Shown here piece by piece: positions 4,544 through 26,850 of a stretch of DNA of 64,000 nucleotides (its first letter is position 1; each line of letters opens with the position of its first letter). The position numbers and the translations under genes are program-made. Below the pieces are notes generated by a model. That model saw only the letters and a list, made by a program, of their open reading frames with translations. It searched no databases and was not told the origin of the DNA. This DNA is from an uncultured Alphaproteobacteria bacterium. Lineage in GTDB: Bacteria; Pseudomonadota; Alphaproteobacteria; Geminicoccales; Geminicoccaceae. The DNA is taken from positions 1 through 64,000 of the forward strand of contig CALKJU010000046.1 in the NCBI GenBank assembly GCA_937995535.1, written 5' to 3'.

Positions 4544-5212
4544 ATGCCTGACGCCGCGGCGCTCGCGCAGCATGTCCCGCTGCTCCGAGACCTCGAGCCG
4601 GATGCGCTGCAGCGGCTCGCCGAGGCCGCCCAGCTCGTGCGCCTGTCCCCGGGCGCCGTGGTGTTTCGGCCGGGCGACGCCTGCCGCACCTTCCTCATCG
4701 TCGTCTCCGGCACGGTGCGCGTGCAGCTGGTAACCGAGGGCGGGCACGAGATCGTCCTCTACCGCCTTACCGCCGGCGACGGCTGCGTGCTCACCACCGC
4801 CTGCCTCCTGGCCGGAGTCGACTACGCCGCGGAGGCGGTGGTCGAGAGCCCGACCGAGGCGCTGGCCCTGCCGCGCCCGGCCTTCGAGGCGCTGCTCGCC
4901 GACTCGGCGCGCTTCCGCCACCTCGTCTTCGCCGCCTTCGGCGACCGCCTGCGCGAGATGCTCCTGCTCGTGGCCGAGGTCGCCTTCCGCCGGCTCGACG
5001 CGCGGCTCGCCGCGTGGCTCCTGCAGGCCGCGCGCGACGGCCAGGTCCGCGCGACGCACCACGCGATCGCCGTCGAGCTCGGCACCGCTCGCGAGGTGGT
5101 GAGCCGGGTGCTGAAGGAGCTCGAGCGGCGCGGGCTGGTTCGGCTCGGGCGCGGCGCGCTCACGATCCTGCGGGCCGACGAGCTGCGACGTCTCGCCGCG
5201 CGCGCCGCCTGA
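4544..5212 (+). CDS. Crp/Fnr-family transcriptional regulator
   Basis: A 222-aa regulator with an N-terminal cyclic-nucleotide-binding-type beta-roll (about residues 10-125) and a C-terminal winged helix. The recognition helix GTAREVVSRVLKELE has the E..SR arrangement of FNR-type proteins. There is no N-terminal four-Cys set for an FNR iron-sulfur cluster; Cys residues are scattered in the beta-roll (DACRTF, DGCVLTTACLL). The ATG is 2 bp after the previous stop. A perfect inverted repeat overlapping the downstream side of its stop region (5218-5232) and the DUF2892 and ccoS genes beyond suggest it controls redox-related neighbours; that link is inference. Confidence 0.92.
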   Translation: MPDAAALAQHVPLLRDLEPDALQRLAEAAQLVRLSPGAVVFRPGDACRTFLIVVSGTVRVQLVTEGGHEIVLYRLTAGDGCVLTTACLLAGVDYAAEAVVESPTEALALPRPAFEALLADSARFRHLVFAAFGDRLREMLLLVAEVAFRRLDARLAAWLLQAARDGQVRATHHAIAVELGTAREVVSRVLKELERRGLVRLGRGALTILRADELRRLAARAA

Positions 5213-6752: not shown

Positions 6753-8171
6753 TCAGCCCAGCACCCGGACGCCGACCGGGGCGGCGACGCCGGCGACGGC
6801 GCGGCGGGGGCGCAGCTCCTTGGCCCGCGGCGGGACGTAGCCCTGCTCGACCGCGCGGGCGTAGGTCGCGTCGTCGGTCAGCGCCGCGACCGCCTCGGCC
6901 TTGGTGTGCGCCTCGAGCTTGGCGGCGAGGTTCACCGGATCGCCGATCACCGTGTACTCGAGCCGCTCGACGCTGCCGACCGCGCCGAAGGTGACCGTGC
7001 CGCCGGCCACGCCGAACCCCAGCCGCAGCGGCTCCAGGCCGCGCGCCCGCCGATCGGTCGCCCAGTCGGCAGCGACGGCGAGCAGATTGTCGACGGCACG
7101 CAGCGCATCGGCCGCGGCGGTGGGGCTCGGCTCGACCGCACCGAAGCTCGCGAGCACGCCGTCGCCCAGGAACTTGTCGATGCTGCCACCGTGCCGGCGG
7201 ATCACCGGGACCAGGCGGCTCTGATATTCGCCGAGCACCGCCATGACCTCGTTGGGTGCCAGGCGCGCGGCCAGCGTGGTGAAGCCGCGCAGGTCGACGA
7301 CCAGGATCGCCGCCTCGCGCAGGACCCCCTCGCCGGGTGCGATCGCCATCTCGGACTGCTTGATGGTGCGGGCCACCTCCGGGGCGAAGAACCGCGACAG
7401 CTCGGCCCCGGCGATGGTCTCGGCGGTGGCGGTGACGAGCAGGCGGCGCGCGCGCAGGACGACGACGGCGAGGATCACCGAAACCATGGCGAGCGAAACG
7501 ATCTTGTCGAACTCCGCGCCGATCAGGATGTCGTAGGACATCACATAGGTCTTGAAGTCGCGGGTGATGCCGTGGGCGCCCGGGGTGGCGACCGCGTAGC
7601 CGAGCAGGACGAGCCAGCCGATGCAGGCCGCCGCGCCGGCGAGCAGGACCCAGCGCGCCTCGAAGCGCAGCGCGCGCAGAGCGATCAGGATGAACGCGTA
7701 CATCAGCGTGGGCGCCTTGAGATAGAGGCTCGGCGGCGCGTCGTACTGCAGGTGGAAGCTCCAGATGGTGACGTAGAGCAGGGTGAAGTCGACGACGATC
7801 GAAACGGCCAGGAACGGTCCGGCGAGCCGCCGCGCATAGGCCAGCCAGAGGCGCAGCGCGGTGAACAGGCTGTAGGCGGCCAGCGCCCAGGGCACCGGGG
7901 CGAACGGCACGTCCGGCGGAAACGCCTTGGGCGTGAGCGCGTAGAGCGTCCCGAAGGTGACGATCGCGCAGACCTGGACCCAGCCGACCAGGATCTCGGT
8001 CTCGGCGTCCGAGACCTCGATCGCGCGGCGGACCCGCCCGGGCAGGTCGCGCACCGCCGGACCGCCGAGGACGAACCCCGCGAGGCGTGCGACCGGCCCC
8101 TCCCGGCGCACTGCCGGGAGGCTGGCCGTCTCAGAGGTACTTGGCGCGTACATCGACGGTCGATTCGACAC
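6753..8171 (-). CDS. Membrane-bound class III adenylate/guanylate cyclase
   Basis: A 472-aa protein with an N-terminal region of about six membrane helices (residues 60-240) and a C-terminal class III cyclase domain (about 285-450). Both metal-binding Asp are present (D293 in VVDLRGF, D337 in FLGDGVL), as is the GDPVNLAAK block (N414). The position usually held by the transition-state Arg four residues after that Asn is Lys418, a variant seen in some bacterial cyclases. It would make cAMP or cGMP at the membrane; the signal sensed is unknown. The start overlaps the upstream lipase gene by 41 bp (23 bp if the ATG at 8153 is used), so the two are probably cotranscribed and coupled. Confidence 0.9.
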   Translation of the reverse strand: MSNRPSMYAPSTSETASLPAVRREGPVARLAGFVLGGPAVRDLPGRVRRAIEVSDAETEILVGWVQVCAIVTFGTLYALTPKAFPPDVPFAPVPWALAAYSLFTALRLWLAYARRLAGPFLAVSIVVDFTLLYVTIWSFHLQYDAPPSLYLKAPTLMYAFILIALRALRFEARWVLLAGAAACIGWLVLLGYAVATPGAHGITRDFKTYVMSYDILIGAEFDKIVSLAMVSVILAVVVLRARRLLVTATAETIAGAELSRFFAPEVARTIKQSEMAIAPGEGVLREAAILVVDLRGFTTLAARLAPNEVMAVLGEYQSRLVPVIRRHGGSIDKFLGDGVLASFGAVEPSPTAAADALRAVDNLLAVAADWATDRRARGLEPLRLGFGVAGGTVTFGAVGSVERLEYTVIGDPVNLAAKLEAHTKAEAVAALTDDATYARAVEQGYVPPRAKELRPRRAVAGVAAPVGVRVLG

Positions 8172-17395: not shown

Positions 17396-20300
17396 ATGCC
17401 CGGCTGGAAGGAGTGGCTCCCGTGGTCCGCTGCGGGTGGTCTGCTCGCGGCGGTGATGGCATTGAGCGAGGTCGGGTTCGCCCTGGAGGAGGGTTACGGC
17501 CTCGAGACGCTGTTCCGCCTGCGCGGCGCGTTCGCGCCGCCGTCCGAGATCGTCGTCCTGCGTCTCGACAATGACAGCCTCAGCGTGCTGCGTGCGCTGC
17601 CCGACGACGTCGACGCGTGGCCGGCGCCGCTCCGCGGCTGCGCCGAGCGCCATCCCGGCTTGGTCGGCGAGGTCCTTCAGGTCGCCGGGATCGACCGTCT
17701 GCCGCGCCGCCTGCAAGCGTGCGTGGTCGAGCTGGCGCACGCCGCTGGGGCCAGGACCATCGTCTACGATATAGCCTTCCCGGCAAGCCCGGACCGCGAG
17801 GCGGGGACGCCCGAGTTCGCCGCCGCGATCGCCGCGCATGGCCGGGTCGTGCTGCGCGAGGCCACGCGCCGCGAGCACCTTCCCGGGCGCACCCAGCTCG
17901 ACATCGTGACCAGCCTGCACCCGCGCCTCGCCGCGGTCGCGGCGGGGATCGCCACCGCACGCCTCCCCGACGCCACGGGCCGGATCGACCAGTTCTGGGT
18001 CCGCGATCGCGCCTCGCCTTCACCGGTCCAGCTCGCCGGCCGGGCGCTCGAGGTCTCGCTGCTCAACACGCTCGACGCGCTGGCCCGCCGACTCGGGCGG
18101 AGCGCACCCGACCTCGGCCCGGACGCGCGCCGTGAGTGGCTCGTGGCGACGGCCCTGGCGGTCGACGCCGCAAGCGAGCGGCTCACCGCCGCCGAGCAGG
18201 CCGCGCTCGCCGCGCTGCGCCGCGTGCACGAGGGCGAAGCGCATCTCTACTTCAACTTCTACGGTCCGCCTGGGACCGTGCCGAGCCTGCCCCTGTGGCA
18301 GCTCCTCGACGGCTCGTCCATGGTCAGGCTCGCCGGGGCGACGCTCTTCGTCGGCAAGGCCAATCTGACCACCTCGCGCGAGCCGGACACGTTCGAGACC
18401 GTCATGACGACCGCCGACGGGGTGCGGATGAGCGGCGTCGAGCTGTGGGCGACCGCGTTCGCCAACCTGCGCGACGGCACCGCCCTGCGCGCGCTTCCGG
18501 AATGGCGGCGCATCGGCGTGCTGGCGACACTGGGCGCGTTGCTGATGCTGCTGGCGATGAGCGGCGGTGTGACCCGCAGCATCGTGCTGACCGTGGCGGC
18601 TGCCACCGCATGGCTGGCCGTGGCCATCGCGGCCTTCATGCTCTGGACCCTGTGGTTGCCGTTCGTCGGCCTTGTCGTCCTGTTGCCGGCGACGCTGCTG
18701 AGCGCTGAGCTGCGTCGCTTCGCCCGCGCCCGTCGCTCGGCCGCGCGCTTCATGCCCGCCGCGGTGGCGCATCGGGTCTTCGACGAGATCGACATCCCGA
18801 CCACCTGGCTCGACGCCACGGTGCTGCTGACCGACGTCGTCGACTTCGCCGCGCGGGCGCGGCGGCTGGAGGCCCAGGGCAGGGGTGCCCTGCGCGCCTT
18901 CCAGGACCGCCACATCGCGATGCTCGCCGCCGCGGTTCGCGCCGAGGGCGGCGAGGTGCTCGAGCAGACCGGCGATGGTGTCCTCGCCCTGTGGACCGGT
19001 CACGACCATGCCGCCGCCGCGTGCCGCGCGGCGCTCGCCATCGCCGCCCGGATCGAGCGCCAGAACGCGGTGCCGCAGGACGACGAGCCGCCGCTGCGGA
19101 TCCGCATCGGCATCAACAGCGGGCCGGTGACCGTCGGGCTGATCGGCGGGCCCGAGCGCGGCTTCCTCACCTGCTCGGGCGACACGGTCAACATGACCCA
19201 GCGGCTCGAGGCACTGGGCAAGAAGCTCTGCCCGGACGAGCCGGCGGTGGCGATCCTGCTCGGGCAGCACACCGCCGCGGCGCTCGGGCCGGCCTTCGCC
19301 GTCGAACTCGTCGCCCGGGAGGTCCTGCCCGGCCACCTCCAGCCCGATCCGGTCTACCGCCTGCATCCGACGCAGGTGGCCCGAGCGCGGCGCCCGGCGG
19401 CCGCGGCCGCCGTCCTGCTGGCCCTTCTGCTGTCCGCGGCCGGCGCCGAGGCGGCGCCCGACTGTTCCGAGCCGATCGCGCGGCTGGTCGCACGCGCCGG
19501 CAGTGTCAGCATCGACGGCGTGACGGTCGATCCAGGCAGCGGCGGAATCCCCCTCTGCGGCGACAGCGTCGTCGTGGTCGGCGCCGACTCCCGCGCGACG
19601 CTGCTGCACCTCGCCGGCGACACGATGCTCCAGCTCGATGCCAACAGCCGCGTGCGCCTCGGCGGTCCGCCCGAGCCGGAAAGCGGCCTTGTCGAGCTGA
19701 CCCGCGGCGCCCTGTTCTTCATCAGCCAGGTCCGCCGCATCCTGACCGTGCGCACGCCGTCGGCGGACGCCGGCATCGAGGGCACCGAGGTCCTGGTGGC
19801 GGTGGGCGAGGGCGACGCCCCGGCCTTGGACCTGCGCGTCTACGACGGCCGCGTGGCGCTGCGCCCTGGGGCCGCGCCGCCGGTCGAGCCGCTCCCCGCC
19901 GAGCCGCTGCTCGCGGGCGATCGCCTCCTCGTTACGGCCGACGGCGGCGTCGCGGTCGCCCGCGGCGACGGCGCCTCGCTGCGCCTCGCCGCCGCCCGCG
20001 AGCTGGCCTGGACCCTCTACTACCCACCGCTGTTCCCCGACCTCGCGGCCGCGCCGCCGCAACTGGCCGAGGCGTCGCGGCTCCTCGCCGCCGGGCGGAT
20101 CGAGGAGGCGCAGGCCGTGCTGGCCACGGTCGCCGACGACTCGCCGGCGGCGCCCGACCGCGACTCGCTCCTGGCGGTGATCGCGGTGAGCCAGGGCGAT
20201 CCCGCGGCCGCTCTGCCGATCGCCGACGCGGCCGTGGCACGGCGGCGCAGCGCCGCCACGCTGCTCGCCCGTTCCTACGCCCTGCAGGCGCTGCGCCGCC

Positions 20301-22687
20301 TCGAGGAGGCACGCGGCAGCGCGCGCGAGGCGACCGAAGTCGAGCCGGGCAACGCGCTGGCCTGGGCGCGACTCGCCGAGCTGGAGCTGGCCTTCGGCGA
20401 CAGCCGTGCGGCGCGCCGGGCGGCCGACCGCTCGGTGGCCACCGGCGCCGTGCCGCTGGTCCACGTCGTGCAGGGCTTCGCGCGCCTCGCCGCGTTCGAT
20501 GCCCGCGGCGCGGAGGCGAGCTTCGCCACGGCGCTGGACGCCGACAGCAACCAGCCTCTGGCCCATCTCGGCCGCGGCCTCGCGCTGATCCGCCGCAACG
20601 ACCTCGTGGAGGGGCGCCTCGGGCTCGAGGCCGCGGCGGCGCTCGACCCGGTCCGCTCGCTGCTGCGCAGCTATCTCGGCAAGGCCTATTTCGAGGAGCA
20701 CCGCGACGGGGCCGCCGCCGCCCAGCTGCGCATCGCCAAGGAACTCGACCCCGACGACCCGACCCCCTGGCTCTACAGCGCGATCCAGAAGCAGCTCGCC
20801 AACCGCCCGGTCGAGGCGCTCCGCGACCTCGAGCGCAGCATCGAGCTCAACGACAACCGGGCGACGTTCCGGAGCGGGCTGTTGCTGGACGAGGACCGGG
20901 TGGTGCGGCAGCTGGCCGTCGGTCGGATCTACAACGACCTCAAGCTCGATCGCCCCGGTCGCCTGGTCGCCAGCGAGGCGCTGGCGGTCGATCCAGGCGG
21001 CGCCGGTGCGCATCGGTTGTTGAGCGATCTCTACCAAGGCGACCCGCAGCTCGAGGTCGCGCGTGTCAGCGAGGTTCTGCAGGCCCAGCTCTTGCAGGAT
21101 CCTGGCCTCAACCCGGTGCGGCCGAGCCTCGCATTCGCCGACCTCGACCTGCCACACCTCGGCAGCTTCTCCACGCCAGGGCTGAACGAGTACTCGGCGC
21201 TGTTCGAGCGCGAGCGGCTGCTCGTGACCGGCAGCGGCGCCGTCGGCAACCAGGGCACCTGGGGCAACGAGGTCACCTTGACCGGGCTCGTCGGCCGGGC
21301 CGCGGCGAGCCTCGGGCAGTACCACTTCGAGACCGACGGCTTTCGCGACAACGCCGATCTCAACCACGACATTGTGAGCGCGTTCGCCCAGGCGGCCGTG
21401 ACCGAGTCCCTGACGCTGCAGGCGGAGTTGCGACACCGCGACAGCAAGCTCGGTGATCGGCGCCTGGACTTCGACCCGGACGCCTTCTCGAGGAACGAGC
21501 GCCGCCATATCGAGGAGGGCTTGGCCCGAGTGGGTGGACGCCTGCGGACCTCGGTCGCGTCGGACCTGATCTTCTCCTTCTCGGTCGTCAGTCGCGACGA
21601 GCGGGTCGAGGACGCCGAGATCCTTCCGGGGCCGCCGCCGAACTTCCAGGACACGTTGGTCCGTGCGCAACTGGCCGACGACAGTGACGCCGGCGCGGCC
21701 GAGATCGGCTGGCTCTGGCGCGGCGAGACGCTGTCCGGGATCTTCGGCGGCGGTGTCTACCACGTCGACAACACCGAGGTTGTCAGAAGCTCGTTCGCGC
21801 CGTGCGACGCGGAGCCGTGTGTCAGCAGCCAACGCCGGAAGAGCGACGGCGACGGCGGCAACATCTTCGCCCAGACCACGGTTCGTGCCGGGCAGGCGGT
21901 CGACCTCTCGGTCGGAATGGGCGCTGCGTGGTTCAGCGGCGACGAGCTCAGCCGCCACACGCTGACGCCGCGCCTCGGGGTGAGCTGGCGGCCCGGCGGC
22001 TGGCTGACGATCCGTGCCGGTGCCGCTCGCGCGCTTCGCCGCCCTGTGGCGGTCAACCAGACGATCGAGCCCACGCAACTCGTCGGCTTTCCCCAGCTCT
22101 TCGACGACGTCAACGCGACGGTGTCCGACCTTTACTCGCTGGCTGCCGACGCTCGCGTCGGCCGGCACGCCTTGCTCGGGCTTGAGGCCGCCTATCGCGA
22201 CTCGTCGCCGCCTGCGCTCGGCAACATCGCCGACGACACCGACGCCTGGATCCGTGGCTACGCCAACTGGTTCGTCAACGAGCGGCTCATCCTGTCCGTC
22301 GAGCCGGAGGTCCACAGCTATAAGCGGGCCAAGCGGGACGCGACGCTGACGCCGAGGAGCATCAACACGGTCACGGTGCCGCTGACAGCACAGTTCTACC
22401 ATCCCAGCGGCTGGTTTCTCCAAGCCGGCATGGCTCTGATCAGCCAGGATGTCGCTCGGCTGGGCGACTTCGGTAGCCTCGAAGGGACGGGGGAAGCGGT
22501 CGTCGTCGACCTCGCTGCCGGCTACCGGCTCGGCAGCCGTCTGGGCTCGATCCGGATCGATCTTCTCAATCTCTTCGATGAGCGTGTCGAGTATCAGGAC
22601 GACGCCTTTCGAACGGCGGAACAGGTGCGCGCCGTTCGCTTCGCGCCCGACAGGACGATCCTGCTGCGGGCGTCGCTGGCATGGTAG
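17396..22687 (+). CDS. Giant CHASE2-cyclase-FecR-TPR-outer membrane barrel protein
   Basis: A continuous 1763-aa frame. Residues 8-24: membrane helix; about 25-365: CHASE2-type extracytoplasmic sensor; about 373-433: three membrane helices; about 470-660: class III cyclase with both metal Asp (D480, D527), a GDTVNM block (N599) and Arg603; 665-687: RR followed by an Ala/Leu helix ending AGAEAA, like a signal peptide; about 696-850: FecR domain (TVRTPSADAGIEGTEV); about 885-1225: TPR-like repeats; about 1257-1763: beta-barrel of alternating strands ending in Trp. The helix count places the cyclase in the cytoplasm and FecR/TPR in the periplasm. It may work as one chain or be cleaved after residue 687. 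CHASE2-cyclase and FecR-TPR-barrel modules are known separately; the fusion is the oddity. Confidence 0.88.
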   Translation: MPGWKEWLPWSAAGGLLAAVMALSEVGFALEEGYGLETLFRLRGAFAPPSEIVVLRLDNDSLSVLRALPDDVDAWPAPLRGCAERHPGLVGEVLQVAGIDRLPRRLQACVVELAHAAGARTIVYDIAFPASPDREAGTPEFAAAIAAHGRVVLREATRREHLPGRTQLDIVTSLHPRLAAVAAGIATARLPDATGRIDQFWVRDRASPSPVQLAGRALEVSLLNTLDALARRLGRSAPDLGPDARREWLVATALAVDAASERLTAAEQAALAALRRVHEGEAHLYFNFYGPPGTVPSLPLWQLLDGSSMVRLAGATLFVGKANLTTSREPDTFETVMTTADGVRMSGVELWATAFANLRDGTALRALPEWRRIGVLATLGALLMLLAMSGGVTRSIVLTVAAATAWLAVAIAAFMLWTLWLPFVGLVVLLPATLLSAELRRFARARRSAARFMPAAVAHRVFDEIDIPTTWLDATVLLTDVVDFAARARRLEAQGRGALRAFQDRHIAMLAAAVRAEGGEVLEQTGDGVLALWTGHDHAAAACRAALAIAARIERQNAVPQDDEPPLRIRIGINSGPVTVGLIGGPERGFLTCSGDTVNMTQRLEALGKKLCPDEPAVAILLGQHTAAALGPAFAVELVAREVLPGHLQPDPVYRLHPTQVARARRPAAAAAVLLALLLSAAGAEAAPDCSEPIARLVARAGSVSIDGVTVDPGSGGIPLCGDSVVVVGADSRATLLHLAGDTMLQLDANSRVRLGGPPEPESGLVELTRGALFFISQVRRILTVRTPSADAGIEGTEVLVAVGEGDAPALDLRVYDGRVALRPGAAPPVEPLPAEPLLAGDRLLVTADGGVAVARGDGASLRLAAARELAWTLYYPPLFPDLAAAPPQLAEASRLLAAGRIEEAQAVLATVADDSPAAPDRDSLLAVIAVSQGDPAAALPIADAAVARRRSAATLLARSYALQALRRLEEARGSAREATEVEPGNALAWARLAELELAFGDSRAARRAADRSVATGAVPLVHVVQGFARLAAFDARGAEASFATALDADSNQPLAHLGRGLALIRRNDLVEGRLGLEAAAALDPVRSLLRSYLGKAYFEEHRDGAAAAQLRIAKELDPDDPTPWLYSAIQKQLANRPVEALRDLERSIELNDNRATFRSGLLLDEDRVVRQLAVGRIYNDLKLDRPGRLVASEALAVDPGGAGAHRLLSDLYQGDPQLEVARVSEVLQAQLLQDPGLNPVRPSLAFADLDLPHLGSFSTPGLNEYSALFERERLLVTGSGAVGNQGTWGNEVTLTGLVGRAAASLGQYHFETDGFRDNADLNHDIVSAFAQAAVTESLTLQAELRHRDSKLGDRRLDFDPDAFSRNERRHIEEGLARVGGRLRTSVASDLIFSFSVVSRDERVEDAEILPGPPPNFQDTLVRAQLADDSDAGAAEIGWLWRGETLSGIFGGGVYHVDNTEVVRSSFAPCDAEPCVSSQRRKSDGDGGNIFAQTTVRAGQAVDLSVGMGAAWFSGDELSRHTLTPRLGVSWRPGGWLTIRAGAARALRRPVAVNQTIEPTQLVGFPQLFDDVNATVSDLYSLAADARVGRHALLGLEAAYRDSSPPALGNIADDTDAWIRGYANWFVNERLILSVEPEVHSYKRAKRDATLTPRSINTVTVPLTAQFYHPSGWFLQAGMALISQDVARLGDFGSLEGTGEAVVVDLAAGYRLGSRLGSIRIDLLNLFDERVEYQDDAFRTAEQVRAVRFAPDRTILLRASLAW

Positions 22688-23096: not shown

Positions 23097-23196
23097 GAGC
23101 AGCCCCCTCACGGCCCTTTGTCTCGTCCGTGAACGGGGGTGGGCGCATCCTCCGATGCGTCGCCGATCCGGCGATCGCCCAGGAGAGGTTCGTCCC

Positions 23197-23487
23197 ATGC
23201 TCACCCGCAAGATGGCTCTGCTCTCGGTCGCCGGCGCGCTCGCCGGGGCCCTCTCGATGGCCGCGGCCTCCGCTCCGGCCGAGGCCGCCACCGGTACGAA
23301 GTGCTACGGCATCGCCATGGCCGGCAAGAACGACTGCGCCAACGCCGCCGGCACGCATTCCTGCGCCGGCCAGGCCAAGGCCGACTTCGACGGCGGCGAC
23401 TGGCGCGCCGTGGCCGACGAGGCCGCCTGCACCGCCGAGGGCGGCAAGCTCGAGCCGTTCGAGGGCAAGAACCCGGCCAAGGCCTGA
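23197..23487 (+). CDS. bufA1: Bufferin precursor, DUF2282 (BufA1)
   Basis: A 96-aa exported peptide precursor. A long N-terminal signal peptide (about residues 1-29, ending AEA|ATG) is followed by a core with the DUF2282 pattern: KCYGIAMAGKNDCANAAG, THSCAGQAK, and a fourth Cys in DEAACTAEGG. In characterised bufferins the core Cys are converted by the MNIO enzyme to thiooxazole-type heterocycles that bind copper, buffering metal stress in the periplasm. ATG at 23197 has AGGAGAGG 8 bp upstream and starts the signal peptide. First gene of a four-gene operon. Confidence 0.92.
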   Translation: MLTRKMALLSVAGALAGALSMAAASAPAEAATGTKCYGIAMAGKNDCANAAGTHSCAGQAKADFDGGDWRAVADEAACTAEGGKLEPFEGKNPAKA

Positions 23488-23508
23488 GCCGGAAGAGGGA
23501 GCCCGATC

Positions 23509-24393
23509 ATGGCTGCGCCCGCCGCCGTCTCGCCCCGTCCGCCTTGGGAGGTTCGGCTCGCGGCCGGGATCGGGCTCCGCCACCCGCACGTCGCCCAGCT
23601 CATCGAGGAACCGCCCGCCGATCTCGCCTGGGTCGAGGTGCACACCGAGAACTACCTGGTCGACGGCGGGCCGCGGCTGCGTCAGCTTGAGCTGATCGCC
23701 GAGCGCTACGCGCTGTCCTTCCACGGCGTCGGCCTGTCGCTCGGCTCGGCCGACGAGCCCGACCGCGCCCATCTCGCCCGCATCCGCCGCCTGTGCGACC
23801 GCTTCGGCCCCGGTCTCGTCTCCGAGCACATCGCCTGGAGCGTCGAGGGCGGGCACTATCTCAACGACCTGTTCCCGATCCCCTACACCGAGGAGGCCCT
23901 GGCGACGGTCGCGCGCAACATCCGCATCGCGCAGGACGCGCTGGGCCGCCGCATCATGGTCGAGAACCCCAGCTCCTATCTGCGCTTTCTGGACAGCACC
24001 ATGGCCGAGTGCCGGTTCGTCGCCGAACTCGCGGCGCGCGCCGACTGCGATCTGCTGCTCGACGTCAACAACATCCATGTCAGCGCGCACAATCACGGCT
24101 TTGCCGTCGACGACTACCTCGCCGCGATCCCGTCCGAGCGGGTCGGCGAGCTGCATCTCGCCGGGCACGCCCGCGTCCTGGCCGATGGCGCCGTCCTGCT
24201 GATCGACGACCATGCCAGCGCCGTGATCCCCGCGGTCTGGGCGCTCTACGAGCGGACGCTGGCCAGGGTCGGCCCGCGGCCGACCCTGCTCGAGTGGGAC
24301 AACGACATCCCGCCGCTCGAGGTGCTGCTCGCCGAGCGCAGCCAGGCGCAGGCTTGGCTCGACCGCGTCGCCGTCCATGCCCGCGCTGCGTGA
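23509..24393 (+). CDS. bufB: MNIO-family (DUF692) peptide-modifying oxidase, BufB
   Basis: A 294-aa TIM-barrel multinuclear non-heme iron oxidase. Conserved metal-binding blocks include FHGVGLSLGS, EHIAWS, ENPSSYL, DVNNIHVSAHNH, ELHLAGH and DDHAS. It is predicted to modify Cys of the DUF2282 precursor encoded 21 bp upstream, with help from the DUF2063 protein whose gene overlaps its 3' end by 17 bp. Confidence 0.93.
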   Translation: MAAPAAVSPRPPWEVRLAAGIGLRHPHVAQLIEEPPADLAWVEVHTENYLVDGGPRLRQLELIAERYALSFHGVGLSLGSADEPDRAHLARIRRLCDRFGPGLVSEHIAWSVEGGHYLNDLFPIPYTEEALATVARNIRIAQDALGRRIMVENPSSYLRFLDSTMAECRFVAELAARADCDLLLDVNNIHVSAHNHGFAVDDYLAAIPSERVGELHLAGHARVLADGAVLLIDDHASAVIPAVWALYERTLARVGPRPTLLEWDNDIPPLEVLLAERSQAQAWLDRVAVHARAA

Positions 24394-25120
24394 GCTGCAG
24401 GCGCGTTTCGCCCGCGCCGTCCTCGGCGGGCCGCCGTCGGGCCTGCTCGACTCACTGGTCGCGGACCATCTGCCCCCGGCCCGCCGGCTCGCCGTCTACC
24501 GCGCCAACGTCCACATCGCGCTGCTGCGGGTGCTCGAGGGCGGTTTTCCGGCAACGCGCCGCGCTGCCGGAGAGGACCGGTTCCGCGCCGCGGCCATCGC
24601 GTTCCTGCGCGCCTCTCCGCCGGTCGAGCCGCGTCTGCACCTCTGGGGCGGCGCGTTCCCCGCCTGGCTCGCAGCGCACCCCGAAACCGCAGGTCAGCCC
24701 TGGCTCGGCGACCTCGCCGGGCTCGAATGGGCGCGCGAGGAGGTCTACTACGCCGCCGACGCCCCTGCGCTGGTGCCAACGGCGCTCGCCGCGCTGCCGC
24801 AGGAGCGCTATCCCGCCTTACGTCTGCGCCTGCATCCGACCGCGCGGCTGCTCGCCTCGCGCTGGCCGATCGACGCCCTGTGGCGGGGCGAGGTGGCGTC
24901 GCCGCCGCCCACGCCCGCGCACGTTCTCGTGAGCCGCCCGGGCATGGAGGTGCAGACCCTGGTGCTCACGGCGGGCGAGCATGCCCTCCTGGCGGCGCTG
25001 TCCGCGGACGCCACCCTGGCCGATGCCGCCGAGGCGGCGCTCGATGCCGAGCCCGGCCTCGACCTGACGGCGATCCTCGCCCGCCATCTCGCCGCGGGCA
25101 CCTTCACCAGCTTCGGCTGA
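24377..25120 (+). CDS. bufC: DUF2063 partner protein, BufC
   Basis: A 247-aa protein of the DUF2063 family (its N-terminal domain is often labelled as a putative DNA-binding domain). Family features: LRELQARFARAVLG at the start, YRANVHIALLRVLEGGFPATRR, and PWLGDLAGLEWAREEVYYA. In bufferin-type systems this protein binds the precursor and presents it to the MNIO enzyme. The 17-bp overlap with bufB supports a complex. Confidence 0.9.
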   Translation: MPALRELQARFARAVLGGPPSGLLDSLVADHLPPARRLAVYRANVHIALLRVLEGGFPATRRAAGEDRFRAAAIAFLRASPPVEPRLHLWGGAFPAWLAAHPETAGQPWLGDLAGLEWAREEVYYAADAPALVPTALAALPQERYPALRLRLHPTARLLASRWPIDALWRGEVASPPPTPAHVLVSRPGMEVQTLVLTAGEHALLAALSADATLADAAEAALDAEPGLDLTAILARHLAAGTFTSFG

Positions 25121-25676: not shown

Positions 25677-26651
25677 CTACTCCGCCGCGACGCGGGCCGC
25701 TGCCCAGGCCGGCTCGGGTTCCAGCTCCGCCAGGACGAAGCTGCCGACGACACCGGCGGCGATGTAGAACTGGCGGCGCTCCGCCGGCAGGGCCGCGAAA
25801 GCGCCGACCAGCCCGCGGCAGTGCCGCGAGCCGCAGCAGCAGCGCATCGCCTCGTGGTCGCCGGCGAGATAGGTCGAGTAGTCGTAGGTGATCTCCTCGC
25901 CCGGCGCGATGTCGCGCAGGGCGATCAGCCGGTAGCCGCCCTGGTCGAGGCGGATGCCGGCGGTCGGCTCGCAGGAGTGGTTGGTGAGATCGTCGATGGC
26001 ACCGCGCGGCAGCAGGTACGCGTCGCGGCCGACCTGGAAGGTGTACCAGTCGAGCTCGTGGCCGTGCGCCGCGAGCTCGGCGCGGGTCACGGTGCGCGAA
26101 CTGTAGGTGGCCGCGTCCTCGTGCACGATGGTCTCGCCGGCGCGGAACGGGCGCGCGGCGAAGATGCCCGCCCCCTTGCCCCCGGCGTCGCTCACGTAGA
26201 GATCCCGGCACAGGGCGAGGTTGCGCATGATCTCGGCGCAGCGCTCGGGCGAGGGCAGGTCGGGCTCGGCGAACGTCGTCGCCGGCGGGCGGAACGGGGC
26301 CGCGGCCTCGGCGAGGCCGAGCAGCGGTGGGGCCGGCTCGATCGGGACCGGGGCCAGCGGCTCGGCGAGCGCCGCGTCCTGGAGGCGCTGCGACGCGGCC
26401 AGTGCCACCACCGAGACCTGGAGGAAGATGTTGACCACGCTGACGATGGTCAGCGGCAACTGCTCGATGCTCAGCGCGTAGAGGAGCTGGACGATGTCGA
26501 CCGCGGCCCAGCCGCCCCACGCGACCAGCGAGGTGGCACGACGCGCCTCGCGGCTGTGCCACAGGAGCCAGAGCTGCGGCAGGTAGAACAGGTCGCCGGC
26601 CACGCCGAGGACGCCGTAAAGAAGGCCGAACACCTCAGGGGACAGGCCCAT
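25677..26651 (-). CDS. SET-domain protein with N-terminal membrane region
   Basis: A 324-aa protein (339 if the ATG at 26696 is used). Residues 1-95 hold about three membrane helices resembling a half PQ-loop/SWEET unit (FYLPQLWLLWHS, then WGGWAAVDIVQLLYAL). A Pro/Ala linker leads to a SET domain at about 160-290 with KGAGIFAARPFRAGE, DDLTNHSCEPTAG and EEITYDYSTY, followed by a post-SET cluster (CCCGSRHC) expected to bind zinc. These motifs form the SAM and lysine channel in protein lysine methyltransferases, and all look intact. A membrane-tethered SET enzyme in a bacterium is uncommon; target unknown. Confidence 0.85.
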   Translation of the reverse strand: MGLSPEVFGLLYGVLGVAGDLFYLPQLWLLWHSREARRATSLVAWGGWAAVDIVQLLYALSIEQLPLTIVSVVNIFLQVSVVALAASQRLQDAALAEPLAPVPIEPAPPLLGLAEAAAPFRPPATTFAEPDLPSPERCAEIMRNLALCRDLYVSDAGGKGAGIFAARPFRAGETIVHEDAATYSSRTVTRAELAAHGHELDWYTFQVGRDAYLLPRGAIDDLTNHSCEPTAGIRLDQGGYRLIALRDIAPGEEITYDYSTYLAGDHEAMRCCCGSRHCRGLVGAFAALPAERRQFYIAAGVVGSFVLAELEPEPAWAAARVAAE

Positions 26652-26850
26652 GCCGCAGAAGCCCCCGCTTCCGGCCGTGCAGGCGCCGTCGCGCATCGCA
26701 CCGGCGCGTCGGCCCTTCCGACCCGTACCGTTCGTCGCGGGACCGCGCGCTGATTGTGCTGGTCCTCGATCTTCTTAGCGCACAGGTTGAGTGGGCGGAA
26801 GAACCTTTGCGGGTCGGCGGCCGTGCTGGCCCGATCCGCTCGACGGAAGG

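Follow-up and report, generated by a model that had tools for sequence, protein, structure and literature searches.

The window, by which we mean the whole stretch of 64,000 nucleotides that was analysed, carries on the forward strand an open reading frame (17396..22687, +) that starts with an ATG and continues for 1763 codons without an internal stop. Within this frame (1763 aa) a CyaK-like CHASE2 cyclase is fused to an NsrA-like FecR-TPR-barrel receptor. The ribosome site at the ATG is fair (-7.8 kcal/mol) and the GC content per codon position follows the pattern of coding genes, continuously across the junction between the two halves. Four Pfam domains scored above their curated cut-offs (CHASE2, Guanylate_cyc, FecR and TonB_dep_Rec_b-barrel) and hydropathy analysis identified hydrophobic segments at residues 12-30, 372-439 and 666-688. 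A preliminary description, made from the sequence alone, had proposed the unbroken frame and the order of the domains; the frame is present as described and the order was recovered by Pfam, hydropathy and structure modelling. The topology given there on basis of helix counting is supported as well. By that count the cyclase should reside in the cytoplasm, the FecR and TPR modules in the periplasm and the barrel in the outer membrane. All features of the frame specified below are on the + strand.

The N-terminal half was modelled with good confidence (pLDDT 84.5). It starts with a first membrane helix (residues 12-30, 17429..17485; modelled as helices 4-23 and 25-43), followed by a CHASE2 sensor domain that is periplasmic by topology (residues 19-382, 17450..18541; PF05226, 9e-17) and by three membrane helices that lead back to the cytoplasm (residues ~372-439, 18509..18712; modelled helices 369-388, 392-417 and 425-452). 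Next comes a class III nucleotide cyclase (residues 474-610, 18815..19225; PF00211, Guanylate_cyc, 2e-9), the last strand of which ends at residue 656 in the model. The catalytic residues that had been named, D480, D527, N599 and R603, are all in place. Like CyaK, the N-terminal half thus combines a CHASE2 domain between membrane helices with a class III cyclase that has its metal and transition-state residues, and an HMM of its family recovered CyaK at 3e-57. The half is therefore predicted to be a CyaK-like inner-membrane CHASE2 nucleotide cyclase, whose activity is deduced from these residues.

The purine site deserves separate attention. Adenylate cyclases possess a Lys and a subsequent Ser/Thr at the two purine positions, and here the Lys is replaced by Glu523 while Thr592 is present; judged by these residues, the half was not classed as an adenylate cyclase. 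The Lys-to-Glu change is one of the two exchanges that characterize guanylate cyclases. Considering that the Lys is exchanged but the second position is still a Thr, the product could be cAMP or cGMP. The same position is occupied by Glu in genomes G020-G024, G087 and G575 and by Asp in the genus of G375, and the Lys is kept in CyaK and in the three other CHASE2 cyclases of the window's own genome. Hence, within the clade of the window the receptor-paired CHASE2 cyclases carry Glu/Asp at the adenine-binding position, and those of the CyaK type keep Lys. It is possible, as far as these residues go, that the cyclases of the receptor-paired clade have shifted to cGMP.

The C-terminal half contains a FecR domain (residues 726-820, 19571..19855; PF04773, 1.4e-7), a TPR superhelix (residues ~890-1159, 20063..20872) and an outer-membrane beta-barrel of the TonB-dependent-receptor type (residues ~1274-1763, 21215..22684; PF00593, 2.6e-8 over residues 1367-1557). 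The TPR-like repeats that were proposed earlier are found between FecR and barrel and form a superhelix in the model, although all of the matches (TPR_19, TPR_16, TPR_17 and a TIGR02917 segment) stayed below the curated cut-offs. The structure model of this half is of moderate confidence (pLDDT 67.7) and displays a signal helix, a FecR-like beta domain, the superhelix and some 20 long barrel strands. A Foldseek search of the PDB with this model put TonB-dependent receptors on top, with PqqU as the best match (E 1.3e-16) and FptA, FecA and BtuB also recovered. Both PF00593 and the PDB fold matches are indicative of a 22-strand-type barrel, the number of strands being approximate in a model of this confidence. 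The C-terminal region thus behaves as the barrel that was foreseen, including the barrel-like strands and the terminal Trp (Phe or Trp in the relatives), except that it starts near residue 1274 in the model and not at 1240. Within the frame no Pfam match to a Plug domain was obtained up to E = 1, and the half was consequently not classed as a TonB-dependent transporter. Sequence searches of the PDB and PHROGs with this half returned matches in the TPR region only.

The two halves meet at CAG GTG (Q660-V661, 19373..19378), where the relatives have a stop codon and, after a gap of 46-234 bp, another start codon. This arrangement was found in 9 out of 9 relatives with a readable junction, and in the window the gap is zero. 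Since the last strand of the cyclase ends at residue 656, the joint directly follows the folded domain. The cyclase runs straight into a signal-peptide-like segment (residues 661-687, 19376..19456), the first codon of which is the GTG. Its signal-peptide pattern is intact, with a basic n-region, a hydrophobic core and A-E-A, it aligns with the signal peptides of relatives that have separate genes, and a candidate cut by signal peptidase I falls, by the sequence pattern, after residue 686 or 687. The Shine-Dalgarno duplex energies at nine receptor starts (those of eight separate pairs and of the receptor on contig C35 of the window's own genome) ranged from -2.4 to -13.6 kcal/mol, with seven of the nine at -8.4 or below. 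At the in-frame GTG (19376) the energy was +0.4 kcal/mol, which ranks 69th among the 76 in-frame start codons of the frame. The start codons of the cyclase genes are uncertain in several relatives. Stop, spacer and ribosome site have all disappeared together, which is the pattern expected of a deletion.

To place the frame among its relatives, the two halves were followed through other genomes. They were found as adjacent but separate genes in 15 genomes (G020-G024, G087, G153, G256, G375, G486-G488, G575, G580 and G767), and about 1,270 genome searches (repeats counted) revealed no further fusion. Within the order (31 genomes), adjacent genes for both halves occurred in five genomes of one genus, and in a sixth a gene for the C-terminal half was located at a contig end. 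The pairs outside G580 and G767 belong to the same families as the halves of the window and have the same order where it was read; separate frames were found in all, with a stop codon and an own start wherever the junction could be read, whereas the window has one frame. As the halves are separate in all 15 of these genomes, the single chain is best described as a lineage-specific fusion. The preliminary description had listed such consistently separate halves among the findings that would refute it, but this outcome does not remove the fusion itself. The trees of the N-terminal and of the C-terminal half both group the window with G020-G024 (support 1.000), whose pairs are the closest in the trees and show 40-43% (N-terminal half) and 37-38% (C-terminal half) identity. 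The halves consequently share one history, which would be expected if an inherited pair was fused and speaks against a union of two unrelated partners. The order cyclase-receptor is that of the window and its closer relatives; G580 and G767 have the reversed order (receptor-cyclase), and their receptors group with NsrA. A scan of genome contigs with the whole protein recovered only two Elusimicrobia cyclases, and a tblastn search of plasmids with the same query matched the cyclase part only, among the matches listed.

Several of the related loci show variations on the pair. In G153, the cyclase (L077, 10537-12471, -) has lost catalytic residues (Asn to Ile, and a degenerate purine site), but the gene still adjoins a full-length receptor gene and a gene for a Crp-family cNMP-binding regulator, found downstream of the pair in the same orientation. 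Two tandem NsrA-like receptors are encoded behind one CHASE2 cyclase in G575, a member of another class of the phylum (L120, 4929-17133, -). The window's own genome contains a second receptor of the C-terminal family on contig C35; a CyaK-like cyclase is encoded ~2 kb further on, on the opposite strand. On its contig C9 (L128, 6811-9674) a FecR-only protein with a signal-peptide-like start is encoded directly before a CHASE2 cyclase, which amounts to a barrel-less version of the pairing of receptor and cyclase.

The preliminary description had found no described system of this form. In this respect it has to be corrected, as NsrA and CyaK of Sinorhizobium meliloti constitute the same system in two genes. 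NsrA is reported to be an outer-membrane receptor and CyaK its cognate inner-membrane adenylate cyclase, which together perceive the plant ribosomal protein uL2 and feed the regulator Clr (PMC7529298, PMC13001267), with uL2 reported as the signal and a C-terminal barrel reported for NsrA in PMC7529298. The link emerged when the gene preceding the cyclase match in S. meliloti was inspected. On pSymB, nsrA and cyaK overlap by 1 base, receptor first. According to Pfam, NsrA contains FecR and TPRs, and CyaK contains CHASE2 and a cyclase; the partners thus have the domain inventory of the halves of the fused frame, including the C-terminal barrel behind a signal peptide, and homology extends over both halves. 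An HMM of the C-terminal family matched NsrA at 1.3e-32 (9e-22 for the FecR/TPR segment and 6e-8 for the barrel segment), and none of 40 shuffled controls was reported. A profile-profile comparison (hhalign) gave E 1.1e-36 over 980 columns at 18% identity, and E 5e-9 with a probability of 95.9 for the barrel region alone; the homology therefore extends over the entire receptor including the barrel. Part of the score is due to the TPRs, and plain BLASTP was significant in the TPRs only, so that profiles were needed. The reverse search, with an NsrA HMM against the C-terminal half alone, was weak (0.011), which implies that the relation is distant. Taken by its sequence, the C-terminal half is best explained as an NsrA-like outer-membrane receptor, with FecR and TPR on the periplasmic side of a barrel of the TonB-receptor type. 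NsrA/CyaK differs from the window in having two adjacent genes, the receptor first and a Lys at the adenine position, instead of one frame, the cyclase first and a Glu. Given the single frame, the fused gene represents a variant and not a plain member of the NsrA/CyaK type; the kind of system had already been described, and the novelty lies in its encoding by a single frame.

We consider it probable that the frame arose by natural fusion of an ancestrally adjacent CyaK/NsrA-type pair and most likely yields a polyprotein that is cut after residue 686/687. Against this reading it can be held that the fusion was seen in one genome only, a draft (118 contigs, 93.6% complete), that the identity to NsrA is as low as given above, and that the gene order is opposite to that of rhizobial nsrA-cyaK. 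Probably a deletion took out the stop codon together with the spacer and the second gene's ribosome-binding site, so that a single chain would now be translated. Upon insertion of the cyclase its catalytic domain would face the cytoplasm, and the Sec machinery would handle the old signal peptide as a final transmembrane segment. The basic-hydrophobic-AXA segment that was retained at the joint suggests cleavage by signal peptidase I, presumably after A686 or A687, in agreement with the polyprotein that was suggested before as one of two forms. BAM would then recognize the C-terminal beta-signal of the freed receptor and insert the protein in the outer membrane. An arrangement of this kind has a precedent in FbcH of Bradyrhizobium japonicum, a cytochrome b/c1 polyprotein that is cleaved at its internal signal peptide. 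There, too, an inner-membrane protein is fused to a signal-peptide-led protein, but both products stay at the inner membrane and there is no sequence relation.

A chain that stays uncut would have four to five helices in the inner membrane and a barrel in the outer membrane, with FecR and TPRs bridging the periplasm, so that the receptor could gate its own cyclase mechanically. The frame has neither a stop nor a ribosome site for a separate second product, and in the model a TPR superhelix separates FecR from the barrel. Nevertheless, we regard this as rather unlikely, considering that the signal peptide at the joint is complete, with an A-E-A like that of the separate relatives, and that tethering to the inner membrane could hinder assembly by BAM. 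Moreover, we know of no single-chain receptor that extends from the inner to the outer membrane. The implication that one molecule serves both as receptor and as nucleotide cyclase, perhaps a guanylate cyclase, and signals a surface ligand via its own FecR/TPR bridge is accordingly a doubtful one. The GTG at 19376 could also serve as an extra translation start, by which both the fusion and a separate receptor would be made; it coincides with the first codon of the signal peptide, and some of the relatives use a GTG for their receptor too. This we deem highly improbable, as the GTG lacks a Shine-Dalgarno-like sequence upstream (the +0.4 kcal/mol compares with mostly -8 to -13 in the relatives), and an independent start of the receptor half was rejected on this ground.

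The remaining alternative is that an error in sequencing or assembly, or a mixed-strain consensus, hides a stop, and that the true arrangement is one of two genes, as in the relatives. In favour of it, the assembly is in draft state, two genes are kept in each of the 15 other genomes that have the pair adjacent, and one base change would turn CAG (19373), directly before the in-frame GTG, or CGA (19382) into a stop. However, the window also lacks the spacer (46-234 bp in the relatives) and a ribosome-binding site at the joint, and one wrong base would therefore not restore the arrangement of the relatives. An inserted or deleted base fares no better, because the other two frames offer the first gene no nearby stop: in one the first stop is encountered near 19520, well inside the receptor half, and in the other there is none to 19557. 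The continuous codon-position pattern and the position of the joint, well inside a contig of 88.8 kb, also speak against such an error. Thus, a frameshift or missed stop near the junction, which would have undermined the preliminary description, is not apparent from the other two frames and from the spacer in nine relatives, and we consider an error of this kind unlikely.

Following the fusion and cleavage that we prefer, binding of a ligand to the barrel would be relayed via TPR/FecR to CHASE2 and alter the activity of the cyclase, the output of which would act on a cNMP-dependent Crp-type regulator (nine HTH_Crp_2 matches above cut-off were found in the window's own genome). The analysis itself established the fused frame, the homologies and domain order, the ancestral adjacency of the halves and the loss of stop, spacer and ribosome site, and we infer the cleavage, the direction of the signal, the ligand and the nucleotide (cAMP or cGMP) in this scheme. 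That reception at the outer membrane is coupled to a cyclic nucleotide, as the preliminary description had proposed, is supported. In the FecA/FecR system, similarly, a barrel of the TonB-receptor type and a FecR domain carry a signal from the outer membrane inward, although there the output is a sigma factor, whereas the frame in the window joins FecR to the barrel, gave no plug match and has a nucleotide cyclase as its output. The BiofilmReg operon of Burkholderia resembles the window in that a periplasmic FecR protein (FecR/LysM) is encoded beside a CHASE2 membrane sensor, but this sensor is a histidine kinase, so that the output is a kinase, and there is no barrel (PMC5192318). Since FecR recurs beside CHASE2, in Burkholderia (PMC5192318) and on contig C9 of the window's own genome, a contact between FecR and CHASE2 would by analogy be the best guess for the transfer of the signal.

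The fusion provides evolutionary support for an NsrA-like receptor and a CHASE2 cyclase working as one unit, a link known until now from genetic work in Sinorhizobium. Receptor and cyclase are thereby made in equal amounts, and the control of an inner-membrane cyclase by an outer-membrane barrel can be studied in a single-gene system. In addition, NsrA/CyaK-type pairs occur outside the rhizobia, in several families and in another class of the same phylum, and the perception of plants is thus likely just one use of this type of system.

Several other genes around the fused gene were noted. Around 9 kb upstream a second class III cyclase is encoded (6753-8171, -; Pfam 8e-11), preceded in the protein by a hydrophobic and probably multi-helix membrane part, and close to it a Crp-family cNMP-binding regulator (4544-5212, +; cNMP_binding 3e-15, HTH_Crp_2 1e-14). 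Directly downstream of the fusion, genes for a DUF2282, an MbnB/TglH/ChrH-type and a DUF2063 protein follow in a row (23155-25120, +), and this trio looks like a RiPP-type metal-related operon. Finally, a SET-domain protein with a hydrophobic N-terminal part is encoded at 25677-26696 (-).
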